64,000 nt of DNA from contig NZ_WKJP01000004.1 in the NCBI RefSeq assembly GCF_009674585.1, positions 186,001 through 250,000 of the forward strand. Reading direction: 5' to 3'. Positions 2,216 to 25,978 of this stretch are shown here, one piece after another. Position 1 is the stretch's first letter, and the number at the start of each line of letters is the position of its first letter. Under the pieces are notes generated by a model. The model did no database searches. It was given only the letters and a program-made list of their open reading frames with translations, and had not been told where the DNA came from. The DNA comes from Haloferax marinisediminis. GTDB taxonomy: Archaea; Halobacteriota; Halobacteria; Halobacteriales; Haloferacaceae. Position numbers and translations under genes: made by a program.

Positions 2216-2235
2216 GGCAAGTGTTGTCATGTACT

Positions 2236-3615
2236 ATGGCAATAGATACCGTGATTAACGGTGGGACAGTTGTCACTGACTCGGCGATGTTCGAGGCGAG
2301 TGTGGCGATGAACGACGGAAAAATCGTCGCGGTGGGCGATGCCGACTCGATGCCGGAGGCCGACGAGGTTGTCGACGCGACCGGCCTGTTGGTCATGCCC
2401 GGTATCATCGACCCACACGTCCACATCGACGACCAGTTCTCGGTCGACTCCTACGAGACTGGAACGAGTGCTGCGGCACTTGGAGGGGTAACGACGTACA
2501 TCGACTTCGCCTGGCAGGCATGGCTTGGTGACCTGAGTCCCTTCGATGCCGAGGGAACCCTTCTCGAAGGCGTCCGTCGAAAACAGAAGAAAGGCGAGAC
2601 TGCGCTCATCGACTACAGTCTCCACGGTGCAATCACGCGAGAGGACCCCGAGGTACTCGACGAATTAGCGGACGTCGTCGACGCGGGTGTCACGTCGTTC
2701 AAGATGTTCACGGCGTACGAGATTGGGCTCGGAAATGGCTTCATGAATCGTGTTCTGGAGCGCATCGCAGAACTCGACGCAGTCGGTGTCTTCCACACGG
2801 AAGACGCCTCGATTTGTGACGAACTGACGGCCCTGTTCCAAGAGGAGGGGAAGGGTGACCCAACGTGGTACCCGCAGTCGCGCCCCGACTATGCAGAAGC
2901 GATGTCTGCTGAGGACGCCGTCCGGATGGCACAAGAAGCGGGTGCGAAGTACTACGGCATCCACACGAGCAACCGAAAGGCTGCCGACGTACTCGCCGAC
3001 TTCCGTGGCGACGGGTCGATGGTCCGTGCCGAGACCTGTACGCACTACCTCGTGCTGGACGACTCGATCTACGGAGAACTCGGGAACCAAGCGATGATTG
3101 CACCGCCAATCCGCAAACCAGACGACAACGAAGCGATGTTCGAACACCTCCGCAACGGGTCGCTCGACGTCGTTTCGACCGACCACTGTGGCTACAAACT
3201 CGAGAGCAAGAACGTCGATAACTGGTGGGAGAGCACGTTCGGCGCGAACGGGTTACAAGCGAGCCTGCCAGTCGTTCACGACGAAGCGGTCAACCACCGT
3301 GGCTTTTCCTACCCATTCCTCGTCCGCGTCATGAGCACGAACCCAGCGAAAATCTTCGGCCTGCCGAACAAAGGAACACTCAACCCCGGGGCGGACGCCG
3401 ACGTCGTGTTGTTCGACCCGAACGAGACGTACACCATCACTGCAGCGGACAACGCGTCTGAAGCCGACTTCTCCATCTACGAAGGCCGTGAGGTTACTGG
3501 CCGCGTCAAGCAAACCTTCGTGCGTGGCGAACTCATCGCGAAAGACGGTGAAATCGTTGGAACACCCGGCCACGGAAAGTTCGTCGAGCGCACGCTCCCC
3601 GACTGGGACTTCTGA
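2236..3615 (+). CDS. Hydantoinase/dihydropyrimidinase-type cyclic amidohydrolase
   Basis: 459-aa amidohydrolase-superfamily enzyme that opens a five- or six-membered cyclic ureide (hydantoin, dihydropyrimidine or allantoin) to an N-carbamoyl acid. The binuclear metal site is intact: H61 and H63 in DPHVHID, the Lys to be carbamylated at 156 in SFKMFTAY, later His residues in FHTEDA and GIHTSN, and the catalytic Asp in STDHCGYK. The length fits D-hydantoinase, dihydropyrimidinase and allantoinase. The start is taken at the ATG at 2236 because a TATA-like box lies 25 bases upstream. A T-tract at about 3632-3639 could end transcription. The AllC-like carbamoylase at 16440-17681 could process its product. 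The substrate within the family is not decided. Confidence 0.92.
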   Translation: MAIDTVINGGTVVTDSAMFEASVAMNDGKIVAVGDADSMPEADEVVDATGLLVMPGIIDPHVHIDDQFSVDSYETGTSAAALGGVTTYIDFAWQAWLGDLSPFDAEGTLLEGVRRKQKKGETALIDYSLHGAITREDPEVLDELADVVDAGVTSFKMFTAYEIGLGNGFMNRVLERIAELDAVGVFHTEDASICDELTALFQEEGKGDPTWYPQSRPDYAEAMSAEDAVRMAQEAGAKYYGIHTSNRKAADVLADFRGDGSMVRAETCTHYLVLDDSIYGELGNQAMIAPPIRKPDDNEAMFEHLRNGSLDVVSTDHCGYKLESKNVDNWWESTFGANGLQASLPVVHDEAVNHRGFSYPFLVRVMSTNPAKIFGLPNKGTLNPGADADVVLFDPNETYTITAADNASEADFSIYEGREVTGRVKQTFVRGELIAKDGEIVGTPGHGKFVERTLPDWDF

Positions 3616-3702: not shown

Positions 3703-5490
3703 ATGAGTAGTCTTCACCAGAACGGTAGACCCGTAGCCGTTTCACCGGCGAGCGCTACCGAAGACGAACCAGTTCCACGGTTCCCTCACGCGAACTGTAT
3801 CGCCGTTCGGGCGATGGCGAACGTTCTCGGTAGTTCTCTCGGCCCTCGCTCTCACGATAAACTCGTCGTCAATCAACTCGCGAGCCAGACAGAACCGGTG
3901 AACCGAGGAGATGCACCTGTCGACGACTTCACGGTGACAGGAGACGGTGCAACACTCCTCGAAAAACTCCCAGTCGAACACCCGATTGCGCCTATCGTCC
4001 GTCGCATCCTCGGGCCAGAACGGCCCGGTGACACGGACATCGAAGGGCAAGACATCCCCGATGGTGTCACTTCGGCCGTCGTACTGACGGGGGCGCTTCT
4101 CGACGAGGCAGAGAACCTCATCGACAAAGGGCTTCACCCCCACGATGTCAGAGAAGGCTACGCAGTCGCCGTCGAAACAGCGTTAGACGTTCTCTCCGCT
4201 CAGACACGCCTGCTCTCGTCGTTCGACGACCAACGAGACGTCGAGCGGGCAGTCGCACGCTCGGCGATGACGGGAAACGATATCGGCGACCTCGCTGAGA
4301 CGTGGGCAGGGCTTGCAGTCGATGCGGTCGACGACATTGGCCGTCCCACAGAGAAATCCTTCGTCGTCCGGTGTCTCGGCGACGGTGAACTGACTTCGTC
4401 GAGACTCGTTCGTGGGGCAATCCTCGACAGGAACACTCGGGCGAACGACGAGATGCCCAGACGGGTCGAAGACGCGACAGTGCTCCTTCTCGACGGTCAC
4501 ACGACTGGTGGGCTTATCGACCCCAAGTGGGAGGAGGATGCTGTCTTCGACCTGCAGTCTCCTGAACAGTTGAAAGAAGTCCGCGAGCTCTACGCGTCTC
4601 GTCGCCGAGCGCTGGTCGACCACTACGTCTCGCTCGGCATCGACGTGGTCGTCACTCGCCTCGGGATAAACGGTGAGTACCAACGACTGCTGGTTGACGC
4701 CGGCATTCTCGGGATTCGTTCTGTCAGTCCGCTCGAGATGAAGCAAGTTGCACTCGCGACCGGTGCGAGCCTCGTTCAGAATCCGACTGACGTCGAAGCC
4801 AGTGACCTTGGCCACGCCGGTGTCGTTTCTATCGAACGAACGTCTCCTCGGCGGGGTCGCCGGAAGAACCGCTACATGACCGTGTTCGACGAGTGTGACG
4901 GGGCGAACTCTGTTACGATGGCCGTCCACGGCGTCTCGGGACAACTCGCAGACCAGGCAGCGACAGAAGTTCGGAAGGCAGCGGCCGCGGTGGCAGCGAG
5001 TAGAGGACTCGGGTCCGCACGACCGGGTGTGGTGCCGGGGGCGGGGGCAATCGAACTCCAGATGGCCGAAGCAGTCCGTGACCGTGCGACCCAACTCGAC
5101 TCACGTGCCCAACTCGCCGTCTTCGCATTTGCGGACGCCTTACAGGAGGTCGTCGCCGCGCTCGTTCGGAATGCTGGCTTCGACGCGCTCACCGTCCTCG
5201 CTGACCTGCGTGCTGCACAGGTCGGCGGCGAGATGGATGCTGGGTTCGTCCTTCCAGCAGGTGAGGTTTCCAGTGCGACGGACGCTGGTGTCTTCGACCC
5301 AGTGGCGTACAAACACCGAATGCTCGTCAGTGCAAGCGAAGTGGCGAACCTCATCCTCCGTGTCGACGATGCCATCGACGCCACATTCACCAAAGAACCC
5401 CTCGGGCCGGACGACGTGATTTACGACGACCGAGCTGAGAAACATCTGGATTACCTCGAAGAGAATCCCGGCACACGCTGGGACAAATAG
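3703..5490 (+). CDS. Divergent TCP-1/Cpn60 (thermosome-like) protein, probably ATPase-defective
   Basis: 595-aa protein aligning by eye along its whole length with group II chaperonin subunits. The matching landmarks are LGPRSHDKL at 46 (thermosome LGPKGMDKM), GDGATLL at 80 (NDGVTIL), AMTGN at 188 (AMTGK) and PGAGA at 445 (PGGGA). The nucleotide-handling residues are altered. The GDGTT motif reads PDGVTS at 119-124, and the conserved catalytic Asp of the intermediate domain falls in an alanine run (about 427-430). It also has an extra N-terminus of about 27 residues, insertions near 56-75 and 103-118, and no Gly-Met tail. A true thermosome is a cytosolic ATP-driven folding chamber; this copy may be a structural paralogue, a dedicated chaperone or a scaffold. 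It lies between the hydantoinase and deacetylase genes, all in one direction. The family is certain; the function is unknown. Confidence 0.82.
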   Translation: MSSLHQNGRPVAVSPASATEDEPVPRFPHANCIAVRAMANVLGSSLGPRSHDKLVVNQLASQTEPVNRGDAPVDDFTVTGDGATLLEKLPVEHPIAPIVRRILGPERPGDTDIEGQDIPDGVTSAVVLTGALLDEAENLIDKGLHPHDVREGYAVAVETALDVLSAQTRLLSSFDDQRDVERAVARSAMTGNDIGDLAETWAGLAVDAVDDIGRPTEKSFVVRCLGDGELTSSRLVRGAILDRNTRANDEMPRRVEDATVLLLDGHTTGGLIDPKWEEDAVFDLQSPEQLKEVRELYASRRRALVDHYVSLGIDVVVTRLGINGEYQRLLVDAGILGIRSVSPLEMKQVALATGASLVQNPTDVEASDLGHAGVVSIERTSPRRGRRKNRYMTVFDECDGANSVTMAVHGVSGQLADQAATEVRKAAAAVAASRGLGSARPGVVPGAGAIELQMAEAVRDRATQLDSRAQLAVFAFADALQEVVAALVRNAGFDALTVLADLRAAQVGGEMDAGFVLPAGEVSSATDAGVFDPVAYKHRMLVSASEVANLILRVDDAIDATFTKEPLGPDDVIYDDRAEKHLDYLEENPGTRWDK

Positions 5491-5604: not shown

Positions 5605-6444
5605 ATGGCACAGGCTACCGTATGTCTATCGTACGATTTCGACGCAGTATCGACGTGGTTGTGGTCCTATGGTTCGTGGGACATGCCAACGAGACACTCT
5701 CGTGGTGTGTACGGCGCAGAAGTCGGCGCCCCGCGCCTCCTCGATTTACACGACAAGTACGACGTCCCCGCGACCTGGTTCGTTCCCGGGCACACGATCG
5801 ACAGCTTCCCGGAGATTTCTGCTGAGGTGTGGGACCGTGGCTACGACATCCAACACCACGGGTGGAGTCACACGGGTCCTGCGACGTTCGAGAGTGAAGA
5901 AGACGAGCGAGCAGACGTCGAACGCGCTGTCGACTGTATCGTCGACCTAACTGGTCGAAAGCCGACCGGCTACCGCTCCCCGGCCTGGGACTTTTCGGAG
6001 CACACACTGGATATCCTCCAGGACATCGGTATCCAGTGGGACTCCAGTAAGATGGCATCCGACTTCACGCCGCATTGGGCGTACGGCGGGTGGAGTGCCC
6101 CAGAAGACGGACCATACGACCGCGGTGAACCAACTGATATCGTCGAACTCCCCGTCTCCTGGCAGCGCGACGACTGGCCACCGTTTACGTTCACCTGGGC
6201 GCGCCCGCACCGCATGGGCTACGTCAGTGAAGACTCGATCTTCCAGCGGTGGTACGACCAGTTCGACTGGATGTACGAAAACGTCGACAACGGCGTGTTC
6301 ATCCTGACGATGCACCCACAAGTCATCGGACAGGCCCACCGCATCATGCGACTCGAAAAGTTGATTCAGCACATGATGACGAAACCCGACGTCGAGTTCA
6401 AGTTGATGGACGATGTCGCCAACGAGTTCCGCGACAGCAACTGA
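5605..6444 (+). CDS. Polysaccharide deacetylase-family hydrolase (PuuE/allantoinase-like)
   Basis: 279-aa NodB-fold protein. The family motifs are present: the Asp motif YDFD at 10-13, the metal-binding His pair H85-x3-H89 within HHGWSH, the RSPAWDFS motif at 124-131, and a late HPQVIG loop. There is no signal peptide or membrane segment, so it works in the cytoplasm. Cytoplasmic members of this branch include the cofactor-independent allantoinase PuuE and related cyclic-imidase-like enzymes, rather than true cell-wall deacetylases. Given hydantoinases on both sides, a ring-opening amidohydrolase role is more likely than sugar deacetylation; this is inference from context. It ends 59 bases from the convergent MmgE/PrpD gene. 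Confidence 0.82.
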   Translation: MAQATVCLSYDFDAVSTWLWSYGSWDMPTRHSRGVYGAEVGAPRLLDLHDKYDVPATWFVPGHTIDSFPEISAEVWDRGYDIQHHGWSHTGPATFESEEDERADVERAVDCIVDLTGRKPTGYRSPAWDFSEHTLDILQDIGIQWDSSKMASDFTPHWAYGGWSAPEDGPYDRGEPTDIVELPVSWQRDDWPPFTFTWARPHRMGYVSEDSIFQRWYDQFDWMYENVDNGVFILTMHPQVIGQAHRIMRLEKLIQHMMTKPDVEFKLMDDVANEFRDSN

Positions 6445-12773: not shown

Positions 12774-12860
12774 CCACCGCTTCGACCAACTCTGACCACC
12801 ACGGTCGTTCTGCGGTCCTCTTTATTACTACCCCCTGTGTCAGTTGGTGTGGCGAATCAC

Positions 12861-13292
12861 ATGTCCGAGACCCACGTGGCCGAACTCACGAACGAAGCGG
12901 AGTGGATGGATGCGTATCCCGTCCTCTCTGAACTACGCCCTGTCGACGAGGAGACGTACCTCCAGTATCTTCGGACGATGGCAGGAGAGGGCTACCGTCT
13001 GTTCGCTCTCTTCGAGGATGACGAAATCCTCGCTGTCGCTGGCGTCCGAATGTCGACTACCCTCTATCACGGAAAACACGCGTGGGTGTACGACCTCGTC
13101 ACTCGCGAGGACCGACGTTCGGAGGGACATGGTCGACGGCTCCTCACGTTCGTCGAAGACTGGGCAAGGGACCACGACTGTGCTGTCCTCGAACTCGCCT
13201 CGGGTCTCTGGAGAGACGATGCACACCGGTTCTACGAGGAACATACAGGGTACGACCGCTACTGCTACACGTTCAAGAAAGACCTGATGTAG
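12861..13292 (+). CDS. GNAT family N-acetyltransferase
   Basis: 143-aa GNAT protein. The acetyl-CoA pyrophosphate-binding motif is EDRRSEGHGRRLLTFVEDWA (consensus R/Q-x-x-G-x-G/A), preceded by the typical central strands (DDEILAVAGVRM). A C-terminal tyrosine-rich strand (YRYCYTF-like) closes the fold. The ATG at 12861 is preferred over the in-frame GTG at 12837 because homologous sequence appears to start at SETHVAEL. The acceptor substrate (protein N-terminus, small amine or amino acid) cannot be inferred. It is a single gene with no visible functional tie to the catabolic genes on either side. Confidence 0.82.
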   Translation: MSETHVAELTNEAEWMDAYPVLSELRPVDEETYLQYLRTMAGEGYRLFALFEDDEILAVAGVRMSTTLYHGKHAWVYDLVTREDRRSEGHGRRLLTFVEDWARDHDCAVLELASGLWRDDAHRFYEEHTGYDRYCYTFKKDLM

Positions 13293-13391
13293 GTCATACG
13301 AGAGGCTGTACCACTCTGCACACCCTGTGTTTGCCATCATTTTTCGGGCACACACTTATGATACCGTTCGTCGAAGAATTTGAGCAAGCAC

Positions 13392-13826
13392 ATGATTGAA
13401 CACATTCTCATTGCAATCGGTGAGAAACGGATGCACGTCGAGGAAGTAACCGAACACGCCGTGGAAATTGCATCTGCTGTTGGCGCTGACATCACCTTGT
13501 TACGTGTGTACCCGAAAGGTGAGTTCGAAAAACGACTGGAAGAGTTCAGTTACGACTCCGCAGACCCCACTGACATCGCGAAACGAAACTCGCAGGTCAG
13601 AGACGCAGCGCATATCGTTCGGGACGCCGGTCTCGAGTTGACGATCGCTGGTGTCGTTGGAAACCCCGGAACTGAGGTGGTCTCGTACGTGGAGGAACAC
13701 GATATCGACCACGTCTTCATCGGCGGGCGAAGGCGGTCACCGACCGGAAAAGCGCTCATGGGAAGTACCAGTCAGGAGATTCTCCTTGGCCTGTCGGTTC
13801 CGTGTACGGTGCTAAAGTTGGGGTGA
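13392..13826 (+). CDS. Universal stress protein (UspA family)
   Basis: 144-aa Usp domain protein. It starts with the core strand MIEHILIAIGEK and ends with the nucleotide-binding loop in IGGRRRSPTGKALMGSTS, matching the G-2x-G-9x-G-S/T pattern of ATP-binding members. The central segment IVRDAGLELTIAGVVG and the EHDIDHVFIGG strand are typical. An in-frame TTG four codons upstream is less likely than the ATG at 13392. These proteins bind ATP or AMP and modulate stress or transport functions; haloarchaea carry dozens. It sits immediately before the ABC ATPase pair, and Usp genes often neighbour transporters. Confidence 0.88.
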   Translation: MIEHILIAIGEKRMHVEEVTEHAVEIASAVGADITLLRVYPKGEFEKRLEEFSYDSADPTDIAKRNSQVRDAAHIVRDAGLELTIAGVVGNPGTEVVSYVEEHDIDHVFIGGRRRSPTGKALMGSTSQEILLGLSVPCTVLKLG

Positions 13827-13936
13827 CTGAATCCAAACATAACTGTTCTTAGAACCAACTAAACTGCCGAAAATGGGCGGAAGGGTTGGTGTAGTACCGG
13901 AATTCCCTTTTGGAGCACTGCTGCAATCGCCCCAAA

Positions 13937-13945
13937 AGTATTAAA
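13937..13945 (+). promoter_or_regulatory. Probable TATA box of the ABC ATPase operon
   Basis: AGTATTAAA is preceded by CCCCAAA (BRE-like purine/C context) and centred about 29 bases before the ATG at 13970. This supports 13970 rather than upstream codons as the start. Confidence 0.5.
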
Positions 13946-13969
13946 TTCGCTGTTATCGATTCGACTACC

Positions 13970-15118
13970 ATGGGTGCCGTAAACATGAGTGAGAATGCCA
14001 TATCTATCGTCTCACTCGAAAAGTCATTTTCCAACGAACAAGTTCTCAAAGGGGTAGATTTCTCGATCGAACCCTCGGAACTCTGTGTCATTGTCGGACC
14101 GAGTGGGAGTGGAAAGTCGACCCTCCTCAAGTGTATCGCTGGTCTCGTCTCCTTCGACAGAGGGGAGGTACTGATTGATGGGGCGAGCGTCGGTAGTATC
14201 CCAGTCGAAAAGCGAGACCTCGGCTACGTATTTCAGGACTTCGAGGAACGTCTGTTCCCGCATATGACCGTCGGTGAGAACGTCGCGTTTGGCCTTCGCC
14301 AGTCTGAAGAAAACTTCAGCGACGACGCAATCCAGCAGAAGATCGACGAATCGCTGGAGTTGCTCGCCATCACGGAGACGAAAGACACTCTCCCTTCGGA
14401 ACTCAGTGGTGGGCAGCAACAACGGGTCGAACTCGCACGAAACCTCGTCCGTGGGTGTGACATCATGCTCCTCGACGACCCACTAGCTGACCTCGACTAC
14501 AAACTTCAAAAGCGGATGGAGCTCGAGATTCGACGAATCCACGAGACGCTCGGAAGCACGTTCGTTTACGTCACCCACAATCAAGACCAAGCGCTCAAAC
14601 TCGCCGACAAACTCGTGGTCATCAATCAGGGAATGATCGAGCAGATTGGGACACCAGACGAGGTGTATCAGAACCCTGCGACAGCGTTCGTCGGTCGATT
14701 CATCGGTGACTCAGACCCGCTTTTAGGCGAGGTCGTCGGTACCGACGGTGCGAACGTTCGTGTCGACACGCCAGTCGGCGAAATCGTCGCAAAGCCACGC
14801 GGCGATACTCCGGACGTGGGGACGGAAGTTATGATACTCGTCAGACCTGAGGACATAACCATCGGTCAGGGGACTGCTGAACTGGACAACGACCTGCCGG
14901 CGACAGTCCAAGGGCGGACCTACACCGGGGAGCGGACCGAATTCACAGTGAGACTCGACGGTGACGCCGAGGACTTCCAGGTCGTCGTCAGTGGGAACGT
15001 TCCGCTCGAAGCGTTCGGGAACCGGACGAGAATTGGCTGGAACGCAGACGAGGGCGTCGCCTACGATACCCTCAGTGTGGTCGAGACTGTGACTGTCGAC
15101 GACCTCATGGAGGTGTAA
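13970..15118 (+). CDS. ABC transporter ATPase 1, with Asp in place of the catalytic Glu
   Basis: 382-aa ATPase of the spermidine/putrescine/iron/maltose-type importer class, with a C-terminal TOBE regulatory region (about 250-370). Counting from MSENA at 13985, the Walker A is GPSGSGKST at 38-46 and the Q-loop is FQDF near 84. The signature LSGGQQQR is intact, and an H-loop His is present in YVTHNQ. The Walker B block reads IMLLDDPLADLD: the residue after the Walker B Asp, normally the catalytic Glu, is Asp. This is the change seen in degenerate sites of asymmetric ABC pairs. It is followed after two bases by a second, canonical ATPase, so the two probably form a heterodimer serving the permeases at 20306 and 25043. 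ATG 13985 is an alternative start. Confidence 0.9.
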   Translation: MGAVNMSENAISIVSLEKSFSNEQVLKGVDFSIEPSELCVIVGPSGSGKSTLLKCIAGLVSFDRGEVLIDGASVGSIPVEKRDLGYVFQDFEERLFPHMTVGENVAFGLRQSEENFSDDAIQQKIDESLELLAITETKDTLPSELSGGQQQRVELARNLVRGCDIMLLDDPLADLDYKLQKRMELEIRRIHETLGSTFVYVTHNQDQALKLADKLVVINQGMIEQIGTPDEVYQNPATAFVGRFIGDSDPLLGEVVGTDGANVRVDTPVGEIVAKPRGDTPDVGTEVMILVRPEDITIGQGTAELDNDLPATVQGRTYTGERTEFTVRLDGDAEDFQVVVSGNVPLEAFGNRTRIGWNADEGVAYDTLSVVETVTVDDLMEV

Positions 15119-15120
15119 TC

Positions 15121-16317
15121 ATGTCTAACGCAAACCTCGACGACAAGACTGAACCGAAACAGCAAGCCACCATCGACGACCGAGAGAACGTGCTCAAGGT
15201 CGAGGGACTCACCAAAATCTACCCCGATGGCACCCTCGCAGTCGACGATATCGACTTCCAGATAAAAGCCGGCGACTTCTGTGTCATCATCGGTCCATCC
15301 GGTTGTGGTAAGTCGACGACGCTGCACTCACTCGTCGGAAAGATTCCCCCAACAGAAGGGAAAGTCATCCTCGACGGAAAAGACATCACGCACGCGCCAA
15401 CCTACGAGCGTGATATCGGTCTCGTGTTCCAGGACTTCCAGCTGTTCCCCCACCTGACGGTCGAAGAGAACATCATCTACGGGCTCAAGCGGATGGACCT
15501 TCCAAAGGACGTTATCGACGAACGTCTCGAGAACGTCCTCGAGATGATGCAGCTCCACGAACTCCGGGCGCGACCGCCGAAAGAACTGTCTTCTGGGCAG
15601 AAACAGCGGGTCGCACTGGCACGGAGTCTCGTGTTAGAGCCGAAACTCCTGTTGCTGGACGAACCGCTCGGGGACATGGACTACAAACTCCAAAAGCGAA
15701 TGGAGCGCGAACTCCTTCGCATCCACCGCGAACTCGACACGACGTTCGTCTACGTGACGCACGACCAGACGCAAGCGATGCGCCTCGCAGACCAGGTCAT
15801 CGTGATGAACGGTGGAAAAATCGAACACAGCGCACCTGTCGAAGAGGTCTACAACGAACCGAACACTGCCTTCGTTGCGGCGTTCGTCGGCGATTCGAAC
15901 ATGTTCGACGGTGAAATCGTCGGTCTCTCCGAGGACGAATCGGTCGCGACAGTGCAGACCTCGTTCGGCGAGTTCACCGTTTCGACCGCAAATCTTCACT
16001 CGCCACCCGCCGACATCGTCGGCAAGCGAATGCCCTTTGCGGTGCGTCCGCAGTTCGTCAAACTCGGTGGAGACACCGATAACACGCTCGAATGTCGCGT
16101 CGAAGACGTCATCTACCAGTCCGGCAGTGGGACGCAGGTCATCCTGTTCGCCGAGACGGACGAGGGTGAAGAAGAGATTCAACTGAAGTCAGAAGACTAT
16201 CTCGAAGTCGACGAAGACCGCGTCACGGTTGGATGGGACACCGAGAACACTATCATTCTCGAACGGACGAGTGTCGTCGATGGCATCGACCTCGACACCG
16301 ATATCCTCGGGAAGTAA
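15121..16317 (+). CDS. ABC transporter ATPase 2, canonical catalytic site
   Basis: 398-aa importer ATPase with all catalytic elements: Walker A GPSGCGKST (about 60), Q-loop FQDFQ, signature LSSGQKQR, Walker B LLLLDEPLGDMD with catalytic Glu, and H-loop in YVTHDQ. A C-terminal TOBE-like regulatory domain follows (about 260-395), as in PotA, FbpC and MalK. The first 20 residues are an acidic/Lys extension. It starts two bases after the stop of ATPase 1, so it is almost surely co-transcribed. No permease is adjacent; the likely partners are the PotB/PotC-like permeases and binding protein further right in the island. A T-rich stretch (CGTTTTTGC near 16350) may end the transcript. Confidence 0.92.
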   Translation: MSNANLDDKTEPKQQATIDDRENVLKVEGLTKIYPDGTLAVDDIDFQIKAGDFCVIIGPSGCGKSTTLHSLVGKIPPTEGKVILDGKDITHAPTYERDIGLVFQDFQLFPHLTVEENIIYGLKRMDLPKDVIDERLENVLEMMQLHELRARPPKELSSGQKQRVALARSLVLEPKLLLLDEPLGDMDYKLQKRMERELLRIHRELDTTFVYVTHDQTQAMRLADQVIVMNGGKIEHSAPVEEVYNEPNTAFVAAFVGDSNMFDGEIVGLSEDESVATVQTSFGEFTVSTANLHSPPADIVGKRMPFAVRPQFVKLGGDTDNTLECRVEDVIYQSGSGTQVILFAETDEGEEEIQLKSEDYLEVDEDRVTVGWDTENTIILERTSVVDGIDLDTDILGK

Positions 16318-20305: not shown

Positions 20306-21151
20306 ATGTCAACAAAAGCCGCGCGGACGAGCGAGGCAACCCAGGGGTCTGGCCTCGCTTCGTTCGTCGAACGAATCAACATAAAGCACGTCCTCATCGC
20401 GTACTTTGCTCTTGCAGCGCTGTACATCTACCTCCCGATTATCTCCATCATCGCGTTCTCGTTCAACTCTGGGGGGCTCACGTTCCCGTTCGTCGAGTTC
20501 ACCACCAGATGGTACTCTGAACTCTTAGCGACGGACGCGATGGTCGAGGCGGTTGGACGGTCACTGCAACTCGCAGTCGTGGTGATGATCATTACGACGA
20601 TTCTGGGAACGGCAGCGGCGCTCGCGTACCGCTATGACTTCTGGGGACAGCGTGGGCTGTTGTTCCTGCTCATCATCGGTATCATTACGCCGGGAATCAC
20701 CTACGGTGTCGGTGCGACCCTGTTCTTGAACGAGCTGCTCGGGCTCAGCAAAAGTCTCTGGTTGGCCGTCCCCGTGCACGTGGTGTGGACGCTTCCGTTC
20801 GCGGTTATCGTCTTGCTCGCGGGGTTCCCACCGAACCTCGCAGAGAACGAGGAGGCCGCACGCGTGATGGGTGCCGACAACATCACGGTGCTCCGGCAGA
20901 TTATCCTTCCACAAATCGCACCGACAGTGCTCGGCGCCGCCGTGTTCGCGTTCACGCTCTCGTACAACGAAGCGACGCGTAGTCTCCTCTTGCTGGGGAA
21001 CGAGAACACGATGCCGCTGGAGGTCTTCTCTATCGCATCGGCGACTCGGGCAACCCCCGACCTGTTCGCACTGGGAAGCATCACGACGATTGCCTCGACG
21101 CTTCTCATCGCCATCGCTGGCATTCTCGTCTTCCGTGGACGGAACAGCTAA
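20306..21151 (+). CDS. ABC transporter permease (PotC type)
   Basis: 281-aa inner-membrane permease of the binding-protein-dependent importer class, with about six hydrophobic helices: YFALAALYIYLPIISIIAF, a helix around VVMIITTILGTAAAL, one near LLFLLIIGIITPGI, and so on to the C-terminal LLIAIAGILVF. The EAA loop that contacts the ATPase is visible as ENEEAARVMGADNITVLRQI (about 180-200), with the conserved Glu-Ala-Ala and Gly. It resembles PotC, the second permease of spermidine/putrescine systems. Its partners, the PotB-like permease (25043) and binding protein (23576), lie 2.4 kb away beyond three minus-strand genes. Confidence 0.92.
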   Translation: MSTKAARTSEATQGSGLASFVERINIKHVLIAYFALAALYIYLPIISIIAFSFNSGGLTFPFVEFTTRWYSELLATDAMVEAVGRSLQLAVVVMIITTILGTAAALAYRYDFWGQRGLLFLLIIGIITPGITYGVGATLFLNELLGLSKSLWLAVPVHVVWTLPFAVIVLLAGFPPNLAENEEAARVMGADNITVLRQIILPQIAPTVLGAAVFAFTLSYNEATRSLLLLGNENTMPLEVFSIASATRATPDLFALGSITTIASTLLIAIAGILVFRGRNS

Positions 21152-22433: not shown

Positions 22434-23408
22434 CTACGCTTCGAAGAATTCACGCACGGATTCGTCGTCGTCGACGACACTCAGTGCGTACACGAGTTTC
22501 AAGCGTGCTTTCTGTGCTGGTAAGTCTCCACCAGACACGACCCCGTGCTTCGCGAGTGTCGCTCCACCCCCGCCAGTACCGTAGACGCCGCTGACGGAGC
22601 CTGCCCCACACCGAGACGTCACGACGACGGTGACGCCGGCATCGATAGCGTCTGCAATGGTATCCCCGAGTGCTGAGGTGACGTTTCCGAGACCGGTCCC
22701 CTCGACGACGAGGCCATCGACGCCTGCATCGACGGCACGCTCGACCTGTTCAGCGCCGACCCCAACACCTGACTTGACCATCTCGACGGATGCTGCTGGC
22801 TCTGTCACTGGGATGTCCACCGACCGACTGCCGGGCGCCCGGAAGAACCGCACACCGTCACGAGTCGTCACGGCAACCGGTCCCTTGTCAGGCGAACCGA
22901 ACGTATCCAATTTACTGGTGTGCTGCTTCGTCACGTCTCTGGCGGCGTGGAGTTCCTCGTCGAACGCGATGTAGACGCCGTCGACACCGGTGAGTTGTTC
23001 GTGTGCCGCGAATCTGACCGCTGTGAGGAGGTTTGCGGGTCCGTCCGAACTAATCTCGTCGGGACGCCGTTGTGCTCCCGTGAACACGACGGGTGCGTCG
23101 ACGTCGAGCGTGAGGTCGAGTGCGTAGGCTGATTCTTCCATCGTATCCGTCCCATGGGTGACGACGATTCCAGCTGCACCCGCGTCGACAGCATCGACCA
23201 CTGCCTCACGAAGGGCAGTGATGGTCTCGAAGTCCATGTCGAAACTCGGCCGCTGGGCGACTTCTTCGACAGTGAGATTCGCGTAGTTTTCGAGTTCAGG
23301 GACCGCTTCGACGAGTTCAGCACCGCGTTTTTGTGGTGTCGCACCACCGTCTCCCGACGTACTCGCAATGGTTCCACCTGTGCTGAGAACGACGATGTCT
23401 GGTCGCAT
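22434..23408 (-). CDS. L-asparaginase (type I/II, cytoplasmic)
   Basis: 324-aa asparaginase-family amidohydrolase. Both catalytic signatures are present: GGTIAS at 11-16 (nucleophile Thr13) and THGTDTMEES at 84-93 (Thr87, Asp88). The C-terminal GVYGTGGGGATLAKHG is typical of the small domain. The length is normal and no signal peptide is present. It releases ammonia from Asn or a related beta-amide. Inside this island it may instead act on a ureide-derived amide, since homologues vary in specificity; that is inference. It starts 167 bases from the divergent binding-protein gene and shares that promoter region. Confidence 0.9.
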   Translation of the reverse strand: MRPDIVVLSTGGTIASTSGDGGATPQKRGAELVEAVPELENYANLTVEEVAQRPSFDMDFETITALREAVVDAVDAGAAGIVVTHGTDTMEESAYALDLTLDVDAPVVFTGAQRRPDEISSDGPANLLTAVRFAAHEQLTGVDGVYIAFDEELHAARDVTKQHTSKLDTFGSPDKGPVAVTTRDGVRFFRAPGSRSVDIPVTEPAASVEMVKSGVGVGAEQVERAVDAGVDGLVVEGTGLGNVTSALGDTIADAIDAGVTVVVTSRCGAGSVSGVYGTGGGGATLAKHGVVSGGDLPAQKARLKLVYALSVVDDDESVREFFEA

Positions 23409-23575: not shown

Positions 23576-25003
23576 ATGTCACGCGGTATCAGTAGACGTA
23601 ACTTCATGTTGGGCCTCGGCGCAACATCAGGAACGATGGCACTAGCAGGTTGCACTGGTGGTGGCGAAAACGGCGGGGGTTCCGGCGGCGGTAATGGAAA
23701 CGGTGGCGGCGGCGGTGGCGGTGACAGTACGACTACTTCTGGTGACTCGGGTGGTGCCGCTGGCGAACGCCCAATGCGCTGGATGGGTCCGGCGTGGGCC
23801 GTCCGCGACGGCCAAAAAGAGAAGTTCACCGAGATGACCGGCATCCCGATTGAGGTGACGACTGCTGACATTCCGACGACGCAGCAGAAGTTGCTCAGTG
23901 GTGACCGCGCGACGTTCGACGCGTTCTCTATCGACAGTTCCGGGGCGGGTGCGATTACCAAGGACAACAACGCCAGTCTAACGGTTCCGAAAGACGCCCT
24001 CGACAAGTGGGACGAAGAGAAGATTACTGAACTGTTCACGAACCCCGGAGAACGTGTGAGCTATCTCGGAGCACAGACCGACACGATTCTCGACGAACTG
24101 TGGGCCGACGACGGGAAGACAGAACTACTCTTCCCCCCACACGTGTACAACTTCGACGCAATCGGCCTGAATCCGAAACTGGTCGACGAGTCGGCAGTCA
24201 GCACGTGGAGTGCCCTGTTCGACCCACAGTACGAGGGGAAAGTGGCGATGGGTGCGACGTCAGCCATCACCATCCCCGAGGCACTGATGCACATGTTGGA
24301 CAACGACATGATCGAAGGGAACGTTGGTGACTTGAACGACCCGACGACGGACCAACTCGACGCTGCAGTCGACTTCCTCATCAAGGAAAAGGAGAGAGGT
24401 CAGTTCCGGTCGACTTGGGTCGCCTACGGGAATTCGGTCAACCTCATGGCCAGTGAAGAAGCAGTCCTCGGTGACATCTGGCAACCAGCCTGTCTCGACG
24501 TTCGCCGGGCAGGAACGCCCTGCACGTACGCGACCATGAGTGCTGGTGTCCAAGGATACCGCTACTGGTACGGTGGCATCGCTCCACTGAACCCCGGTGC
24601 AACGGACCGCAACAACGTCGATATGGTTCACACCCTCATCAACGACGTCCACTACGGCGCGTGGTTCCCCGGATACATCCAGGGCTGGGGCTACTCCGTC
24701 CCGCACTTCCCGAACAAGGAACTCGTCCGTGACGGTTCCGATGATTCTGGTCAGGGAATGGGTCCCGAGTACTACGACTGGGCGTACGAAGGCAAGGCGA
24801 CCTACCAAGCCGTCGACGAACCGGGGCTGTTCGACCCACAACAGTACGAGTGGTCGATGGAGGAAGGTGACCCGAGCTCAGATGGACAGGTGCGCAACAG
24901 TGGCCCTGTGGAAGAACGTATCGACCGTATCGGGTTCTTCCAAATCTGGCCCAGCAACGCCGACTACATGCTCGAACGGTGGAAGGACTTCACGAGCGCC
25001 TAG
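23576..25003 (+). CDS. ABC transporter substrate-binding lipoprotein (PotD-like, Tat-exported)
   Basis: 475-aa extracellular solute-binding protein. It begins with a twin-arginine signal (SRRNFMLGLG, Arg7-Arg8) and a lipobox ending at Cys26 (ALAGC), so it is exported folded and lipid-anchored outside the cell. A Gly/Asn/Ser-rich flexible tether of about 35 residues follows. The mature part looks like the PotD/Fe-binding group of type 2 binding proteins (RWMGPAWAVRDGQ start, LFPPHVYNFDAIGLN, central GKVAMGATSAITIPEA). It is followed after 39 bases by the PotB-like permease. Its ligand is probably a cationic or amide-bearing small molecule; the exact ligand is unknown. Confidence 0.92.
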   Translation: MSRGISRRNFMLGLGATSGTMALAGCTGGGENGGGSGGGNGNGGGGGGGDSTTTSGDSGGAAGERPMRWMGPAWAVRDGQKEKFTEMTGIPIEVTTADIPTTQQKLLSGDRATFDAFSIDSSGAGAITKDNNASLTVPKDALDKWDEEKITELFTNPGERVSYLGAQTDTILDELWADDGKTELLFPPHVYNFDAIGLNPKLVDESAVSTWSALFDPQYEGKVAMGATSAITIPEALMHMLDNDMIEGNVGDLNDPTTDQLDAAVDFLIKEKERGQFRSTWVAYGNSVNLMASEEAVLGDIWQPACLDVRRAGTPCTYATMSAGVQGYRYWYGGIAPLNPGATDRNNVDMVHTLINDVHYGAWFPGYIQGWGYSVPHFPNKELVRDGSDDSGQGMGPEYYDWAYEGKATYQAVDEPGLFDPQQYEWSMEEGDPSSDGQVRNSGPVEERIDRIGFFQIWPSNADYMLERWKDFTSA

Positions 25004-25042: not shown

Positions 25043-25978
25043 ATGTCAGATAGCTACAGACCGACCGCAAGTTCGGAACAAGCAGAACAGCAACCAGAAG
25101 CCGAGAAAGGCATCCTCGAGCGACTGAAAGGGGTGCGTCTCGGAGAGGTTCAGGTACTTGTGGGACCAACTATACTGTGGTTCTTCTTGTTCCTGATCGC
25201 TCCGCTCCTCGTCATTCTCTATTACAGTTTCCTCACCTACTCGAGCTTCAACGTCGAGTTCACGCTGACGCTCGACGCGTGGGAGGCCGTCTTCCAACCG
25301 ACTATCTACGACGTCTTCATCCGCTCGCTGCTCATCGGCGTGGCCGTCACCGTCGTGACGCTCATCTTCGGATACCCGTTAGCGTACTACCTGCGCTTCT
25401 ACACCAGCCAGAATGGGGGTATCCTACTGTTGCTGTTCCTCGTCATCCCATTCTGGACCTCTGCAGTCATCCGTACCATCGGTTGGTACCCGATTCTCGG
25501 AAGGACCGGCGTGGTTAACAAACTCCTCATCCAATGGGGTCTCGTCGACGCGCCGATAGGGGCGCTCCTGTTCTCGCCATTCTCACAAATCGTCGGGTAC
25601 CTCGGGGCCTACATCGTGTTCATGGCAGCACCCATCTTCATCTCGCTCTCACAGATCGACGAGGACCTGCTGGATGCGTCCGAGACGCTTCGCGGTGACC
25701 CAATCGATACGTTCAGATATGTTACGCTTCCATTAAGTCTGCCAGGTGTGGTCATTGGCGTCATCTTCGTGTTCGTTCTCTCTATCGGGGACTTCACCAT
25801 TCCTCAGTTCCTCTCGGGAGGGAAAGGAACGATTACGACGCTCATCTACCTGTCTGTCAACACTGGTCTGAACTACCCCGACGCAGCAGCGCTCTCGATT
25901 GCGCTCCTCGTCATCATCTTCACTGTCGTCTACGTCCTGACGCGGTTCGTCGACATCAGTAAAATCGCACAGAGCTGA
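25043..25978 (+). CDS. ABC transporter permease (PotB type)
   Basis: 311-aa permease with a long, acidic cytoplasmic N-terminus and about six helices, starting at ILWFFLFLIAPLLVILYYSF. The EAA loop is represented by DEDLLDASETLRGDPIDTFR (about 205-225). PotB-like features are the large extracytoplasmic segment after helix 1 and the sequence VIPFWTSAVIRTIGWYPIL. It pairs with the PotC-like permease at 20306, and the ATPases at 13970-16317 supply energy. It is downstream of and close to the binding-protein gene, so probably co-transcribed. A short T/A-rich gap separates it from the convergent second hyuA. Confidence 0.92.
   Translation: MSDSYRPTASSEQAEQQPEAEKGILERLKGVRLGEVQVLVGPTILWFFLFLIAPLLVILYYSFLTYSSFNVEFTLTLDAWEAVFQPTIYDVFIRSLLIGVAVTVVTLIFGYPLAYYLRFYTSQNGGILLLLFLVIPFWTSAVIRTIGWYPILGRTGVVNKLLIQWGLVDAPIGALLFSPFSQIVGYLGAYIVFMAAPIFISLSQIDEDLLDASETLRGDPIDTFRYVTLPLSLPGVVIGVIFVFVLSIGDFTIPQFLSGGKGTITTLIYLSVNTGLNYPDAAALSIALLVIIFTVVYVLTRFVDISKIAQS

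Follow-up and report, generated by a model that had tools for sequence, protein, structure and literature searches.

We describe a haloarchaeal group II chaperonin gene that co-occurs strictly with the genes of one Pot-type ABC transporter, in most cases directly beside them, and whose product (CPN), judged from its active-site residues and gene order, is most plausibly a transporter-dedicated chaperonin that probably does not hydrolyse ATP. The usual view of chaperonins is that of ATP-driven machines with a general housekeeping role. A family whose hydrolysis residues are uniformly replaced and which is inherited strictly with one transporter would, if this reading is true, mean that such a ring can specialise for one pathway and perhaps work without an ATP cycle of its own. 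The gene lies in the 64,000-nucleotide stretch analysed here (the window), on contig C4 (283 kb) of a haloarchaeal genome of 3.49 Mb, and genetically tractable haloarchaea offer a direct test ground for a dedicated chaperonin.

The chaperonin and its ATP site

The open reading frame at 3703-5490 (forward strand, as are all features below unless stated) is intact and full-length, encoding a divergent chaperonin of 595 aa with a Pfam Cpn60_TCP1 match (PF00118) of ~326 bits across residues 39-560, whereas the three canonical thermosome subunits on the main contig of the same genome reach 525-630 bits. CPN also falls below the curated NCBIfam thermosome cut-offs (306 vs 450 bits for NF041082, 290 vs 400 for NF041083 and 304 vs 671 for TIGR02339). 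Its best PDB relatives by phmmer are all group II chaperonins, the nearest solved ones being thermosomes and CCT, and Cpn60_TCP1 homology, a three-domain fold and a built-in lid region place it in the group II superfamily. Immediate neighbours are a hydantoinase/dihydropyrimidinase-type amidohydrolase gene (2221-3615; 354 bits to the NCBIfam D-hydantoinase model, cut-off 393) and a PuuE-like gene of the polysaccharide-deacetylase family (5605-6444), which bears out an earlier note on this DNA that had placed a full-length group II chaperonin relative between a hydantoinase and a PuuE-like hydrolase. A putative TATA-like element, cttttact, was recognised by eye ~30 bases 5' of the start codon; a promoter scan with sigma-70 models only was not informative.

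For the ATP site, 15 family members were aligned with 19 canonical group II chaperonins from viral contigs (MAFFT), and the family was separately aligned with the host's own thermosomes; we take the nucleotide-sensing Lys and catalytic Asp columns to be established family knowledge. The catalytic Asp column holds Lys425 in CPN (4975-4977), with Lys in 14 of the 15 members and Gln in one against Asp in all 19 controls, and phmmer alignment to PDB chains gives the same column. The earlier note was thus right that the catalytic Asp is lost, but its placing of that position in an alanine run near 427-430 was rejected, as both HMMER and MAFFT alignments put the column at Lys425, directly preceded by Arg424 (invariant across the family) and with the alanine run (426-429) just downstream. 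Asn192 (4276-4278) stands in place of the nucleotide-sensing Lys (TGK to TGND; Asn in 15/15 members, Lys in 19/19 controls) and the Lys-Gly-Met of the LGPKGMDK loop is gone from the family, two changes that had not been listed before. For the phosphate loop, the reported change to PDGVTS is correct for CPN itself (GDGTTT to PDGVTS), and the family-wide constant is the replacement of the first Thr of GDGTT by Val or Ile in 15/15 members (Val122 in CPN; Val in 12, Ile in 3, Thr in all 19 controls), beside Asp120 and Gly121 (4060-4068 together with Val122), which are conserved in all 15; the residue before Asp120 varies (Pro, Phe, His or Tyr). The Gly-to-Pro change was rejected as a disabling mark on its own: Tyr or Phe occupies this position in canonical viral thermosomes whose catalytic set is complete. 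As a separate observation, viral-labelled IMG/VR contigs (L087-L117) encode complete group II chaperonins, many of them reading YDGTT or FDGTT for GDGTT.

Other parts of the site are retained, namely Asp81 (the canonical VTNDG Asp, 3943-3945; 15/15 members, 19/19 controls) and the GGG and NAG-D sites, with Gly446, Gly448, Asn490, Gly492 and Asp494 present in all 15 aligned members. By these alignments the ATP pocket shows a uniform, family-wide change on its phosphate side, with CPN having neither the catalytic Asp, nor an intact GDGTT loop, nor the sensing Lys, and the family is probably defective in hydrolysis. The proposal that the fold was kept and ATPase residues were lost therefore stands, as a conserved family-wide state and not as that of one decayed gene. 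In Methanococcus maripaludis, the lid of the group II chaperonin closes after the nucleotide sensing loop has recognised the gamma-phosphate (PMC8346469), so that the changes in CPN touch both sensing and hydrolysis positions. By its title, PDB 3j02 is a D386A group II chaperonin solved with ATP bound in a pre-hydrolysis state, so that, as far as the title goes, ATP binding without hydrolysis would be possible in this fold.

The AlphaFold2 monomer model, built from 34 sequences, has a pLDDT of 83.5 and a pTM of 0.79 and is disordered at 107-116 and at both ends; adding viral thermosomes had improved on an earlier model that was poor around the pocket. All Foldseek matches listed for it are group II chaperonins, the archaeal ones having target-normalised TM scores mostly of 0.85-0.88 and including ATP-bound D386A Mm-cpn, and the lid-region helix is both aligned and modelled (287-311). 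Instead of the two insertions noted previously, alignments revealed four that are family-wide: a 14-aa stem-loop insertion (residues ~60-73, 3880-3921; seen against PDB chains and the host's own thermosomes), an 8-aa insertion beginning PERPGDT before the phosphate loop (residues ~105-112, 4015-4038) that overlaps the disordered part of the model, a basic insertion around RRGRRKN (residues ~383-389, 4849-4869; RRxRRK in the family) and 4 aa ahead of PGAG (PGxG across the family). At the N-terminus the canonical PIFIL.EGT.R strand is absent, and the LxLRVDDAxDA strand at the C-terminus is retained, as is the stem loop. The missing Gly-Met tail was borne out by alignment and model, its place being taken by a family-specific tail (residues 561-595, 5383-5487) with a partly conserved C-terminal helix, modelled at 575-587, that ends NPGTRW in the closest relatives.

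Linkage to one ABC transporter

Comparing 22 window proteins with ~26 chaperonin loci revealed that one ABC transporter alone supplies the genes which accompany the chaperonin at every locus of sufficient flank; it comprises two ATPases, both PotA-like, a pair of permeases and a solute-binding protein that bears a Tat lipoprotein signal. In the window these five genes lie 8-22 kb downstream of CPN: ATPase A1 (13910-15118; PF00005 plus TOBE_2, with a start that probably lies 3' of the listed TTG), which is linked in those loci that reach far enough, ATPase A2 (15121-16317; from domain search and locus comparison), the PotC-like permease 1 (20306-21151), the binding protein (23576-25003; SBP_bac_8, Tat-type lipoprotein signal SRRNFMLG...LAGC) and permease 2 (25043-25978; from locus comparison, its Pfam score being just below the cut-off). 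The transporter is immediately adjacent to the chaperonin in most other members, and in ~12 loci the two permease genes flank the chaperonin gene, which runs on the strand opposite to theirs.

Across 384 genomes, the binding protein and permease 1 each occur in 15, the same 15 that carry the chaperonin and none outside (Fisher p 3e-27, a value that ignores genome relatedness). The binding protein is also found in 10/10 further chaperonin-positive genomes or records, with the G165 copy diverged to 41% identity, and a low-threshold scan for it left a gap between true orthologues and the next unrelated matches at 70-90 bits. Co-occurrence and adjacency with both binding protein and permease make the chaperonin a member of the transporter module; the co-occurrence is that of a functional or mobile unit and does not imply physical contact.

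The chaperonin family itself is monophyletic (SH-aLRT 100) on a long stem, and ~27 members were found, mostly on plasmids or secondary replicons. A family profile search recovered it in 16 of 392 Halobacteriales genomes and 10 of 95 genera, and it is also present on plasmids of Haladaptatus, Halarchaeum, Natronorubrum, Haloarcula and Halobellus; it was found in no other searched species of the source genus. Single-sequence scans of genome and viral contigs with CPN gave no match, and an alignment query did. This patchy distribution together with the plasmid location points to horizontal movement of the family.

Candidate role and competing explanations

Our reading, favoured tentatively, is that CPN, an accessory haloarchaeal chaperonin of group II type, is dedicated to a single solute-uptake module that moves horizontally and consists of the Pot-type ABC transporter and variable amide-hydrolysing enzymes. 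CPN would still form a lidded ring or oligomer, its ATP turnover would fall short of the normal rate, and some product of the module would have in it a private holdase or assembly cage. Since no other partner is constant, a transporter component is the most likely client, and the first choice would be the Tat-exported solute-binding lipoprotein, which would need to fold in a salty cytoplasm before export. Release would come when the client is handed over to Tat, the membrane or the permease, or through a mixed ring with ATPase-active host thermosome subunits, and not through hydrolysis by CPN itself. Several observations count against this dedicated role: binding proteins of other ABC systems need no private chaperonin to fold, the transporter of the window is 8-22 kb away with CPN between hydantoinase and PuuE genes, other accessory clades adjoin an enzyme gene (formamidase) and not a transporter protein, and the lost PIFIL.EGT.R strand could mean weaker ring assembly.

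Two serious rivals have to be weighed. The first, which we consider unlikely but worth keeping in view, is a ligand-sensing or regulatory ring in which the pocket would bind a nucleotide without hydrolysing it, or else the transporter's substrate or a breakdown product, and so gate or regulate the transporter. The selective loss of phosphate-side residues with GGG and NAG-D kept on the base/ribose side, the conserved basic pair R424-K425 with a conserved insertion beside the pocket, and the strict transporter link are all consistent with such a sensor, but that insertion is poorly modelled, Mg-ATP could still fit a pocket that keeps Asp81 and Asp120, and we know of no chaperonin acting as a ligand-sensing or regulatory ring. 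The second, to which we give a similarly low probability, is an ATPase-inactive specialised subunit that would enter a mixed ring with the host thermosome and shift its choice of clients. The retained LxLRVDDAxDA strand and stem loop and the three ATPase-complete subunits in the genome fit this, as do the adjacent pairs formed by other diverged haloarchaeal chaperonins in sugar or sugar-acid clusters (L028 9938-13285, L029 9965-13224 and L126 6872-10316), two of which, in L028 and L126, combine one subunit with and one without the catalytic Asp and so suggest mixed rings. The stem-loop insertion and the loss of the N-terminal strand, however, change likely ring contacts, and the family moves between genera whose thermosomes differ.

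The scaffold, storage shell or holdase for hydantoin/ureide enzymes proposed in the earlier note now looks improbable. It gains from the closest relatives (L014, L020, L021, L023 and L064), where the order of the hydantoinase, amidase, PuuE and HyuAB genes is unchanged, and more generally asparaginase-like, PuuE-like, HyuAB, hydantoinase and amidase genes do surround many family members; no single hydrolase is constant, however, and at the Haloarcula litorea locus the transporter is present while not one of these enzymes is encoded within 12 kb. The PuuE-like gene and an asparaginase-family amidohydrolase gene (22434-23408, reverse strand; both assigned from domain search and locus comparison) are frequent but not constant beside the chaperonin. 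As a constant partner the hydantoinase was ruled out by the genome search: its orthologue is present in 56 of 384 genomes, the chaperonin being absent from 48 of these, and among 15 chaperonin-positive genomes it is present in 8 (near the chaperonin in 6) and missing from 7. With the transporter as the constant partner, a storage shell or scaffold for the cluster enzymes is less likely than a transport role. The same closest loci also conserve the order of a GNAT acetyltransferase and a universal stress protein gene, which in the window (12837-13292 and 13380-13826) lie between HyuA and the transporter ATPases.

A functionless gene in decay would account for the one member split by a frameshift (L009/L023, G166:C1 ~2033000-2034618; a pseudogene or a sequencing error in an intact neighbourhood) and for fast evolution (41-51% identity outside close relatives), but is very improbable given the numerous intact copies across at least 10 genera and their identical active-site replacements. 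The gene is also under selection, as close orthologues differ at 58-60% of third codon positions against 18-24% of first and second ones, third-position differences being ~3 times the second-position ones.

Other accessory chaperonins and known systems

Transporter dedication may be one case of a wider pattern, as other haloarchaeal plasmids carry accessory chaperonins in separate clades. A formamidase (fmdA)-linked clade occurs on plasmids of five genera (L030, L031, L121, L122 and L123), in 3/5 with AmiS/UreI channel and CrcB genes nearby, and ends in a conserved (G)GYPWA(I/V)(G/S)H tail, mostly with a His-rich stretch ahead; a copied formamidase sequence as the source of this tail was rejected, there being no motif in common. 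Another clade, linked to sugar-acid ABC and mandelate-racemase genes, was found in Halomarina and Haladaptatus, where some of its chaperonins are paired, and further accessory chaperonins adjoin sugar or other ABC systems, glycoside hydrolases or acyl-CoA genes; around one Natrinema accessory chaperonin no catabolic or ABC context was found. Like CPN, the formamidase and sugar-acid clades are plasmid-borne and sit in catabolic or transport clusters, several members having no catalytic Asp, but they differ in partners and tails (GGYPWAIGH in the formamidase clade) and do not have the PERPGDT and basic insertions of CPN. The catalytic Asp is replaced in several accessory chaperonins and kept in others, suggesting losses in separate clades, with deep branching among these long branches uncertain. 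We would go further only with some doubt, and hold a little less firmly than the dedicated role itself the broader idea that haloarchaea repeatedly evolved pathway-dedicated, often hydrolysis-defective chaperonins that move with one cassette, CPN being a non-hydrolysing cage or sensor for one ABC transporter. Automatic labels such as 'TCP-1/cpn60 chaperonin family protein' and 'thermosome subunit' mask several such cases on haloarchaeal plasmids.

Set beside archaeal thermosomes (Mm-cpn, T. acidophilum and Thermococcus KS-1), CPN shares the three-domain fold, lid helix region, stem loop and C-terminal RxDD strand, as well as equivalents of Asp81 and Asp120, GGG and NAG-D, but departs from them in the changes of catalytic Asp to Lys, sensing Lys to Asn and first Thr to Val/Ile, the loss of KGM, the four insertions and the absence of the canonical N-terminal strand and Gly-Met tail. 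In eukaryotes, BBS proteins function in BBSome assembly. BBS6/MKKS, BBS10, BBS12 and CCT8L are diverged chaperonins with unusual substitutions at phosphate-binding positions and the catalytic triad (PMC2846930), and because of these examples chaperonins with an altered ATP site are not unprecedented as a kind. CPN has in common with them divergence with an altered ATP site, whereas it is archaeal, mobile and tied to an ABC transporter; given the archaeal origin, membership of the BBS clade is unlikely. In the open-access literature we found no description of a chaperonin or thermosome tied to haloarchaeal catabolic clusters, formamidase, hydantoinase or ABC transporters, and an archaeal, transporter-locked variant with an altered site appears to be new. 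Both CPN and the extra group II subunits of Methanosarcina acetivorans are cases of archaeal lineage-specific chaperonin expansion, a likeness of description and not of sequence, and we know of no catabolic or transport linkage for the latter. M. acetivorans has five group II chaperonin genes, and archaeal genomes have been stated to contain one to five, with five only in that species (PMC6420498). Several haloarchaeal genomes among ours (G261, G181, G206, G228, G263 and others) carry five or six Cpn60/TCP-1 genes, which contradicts that statement.
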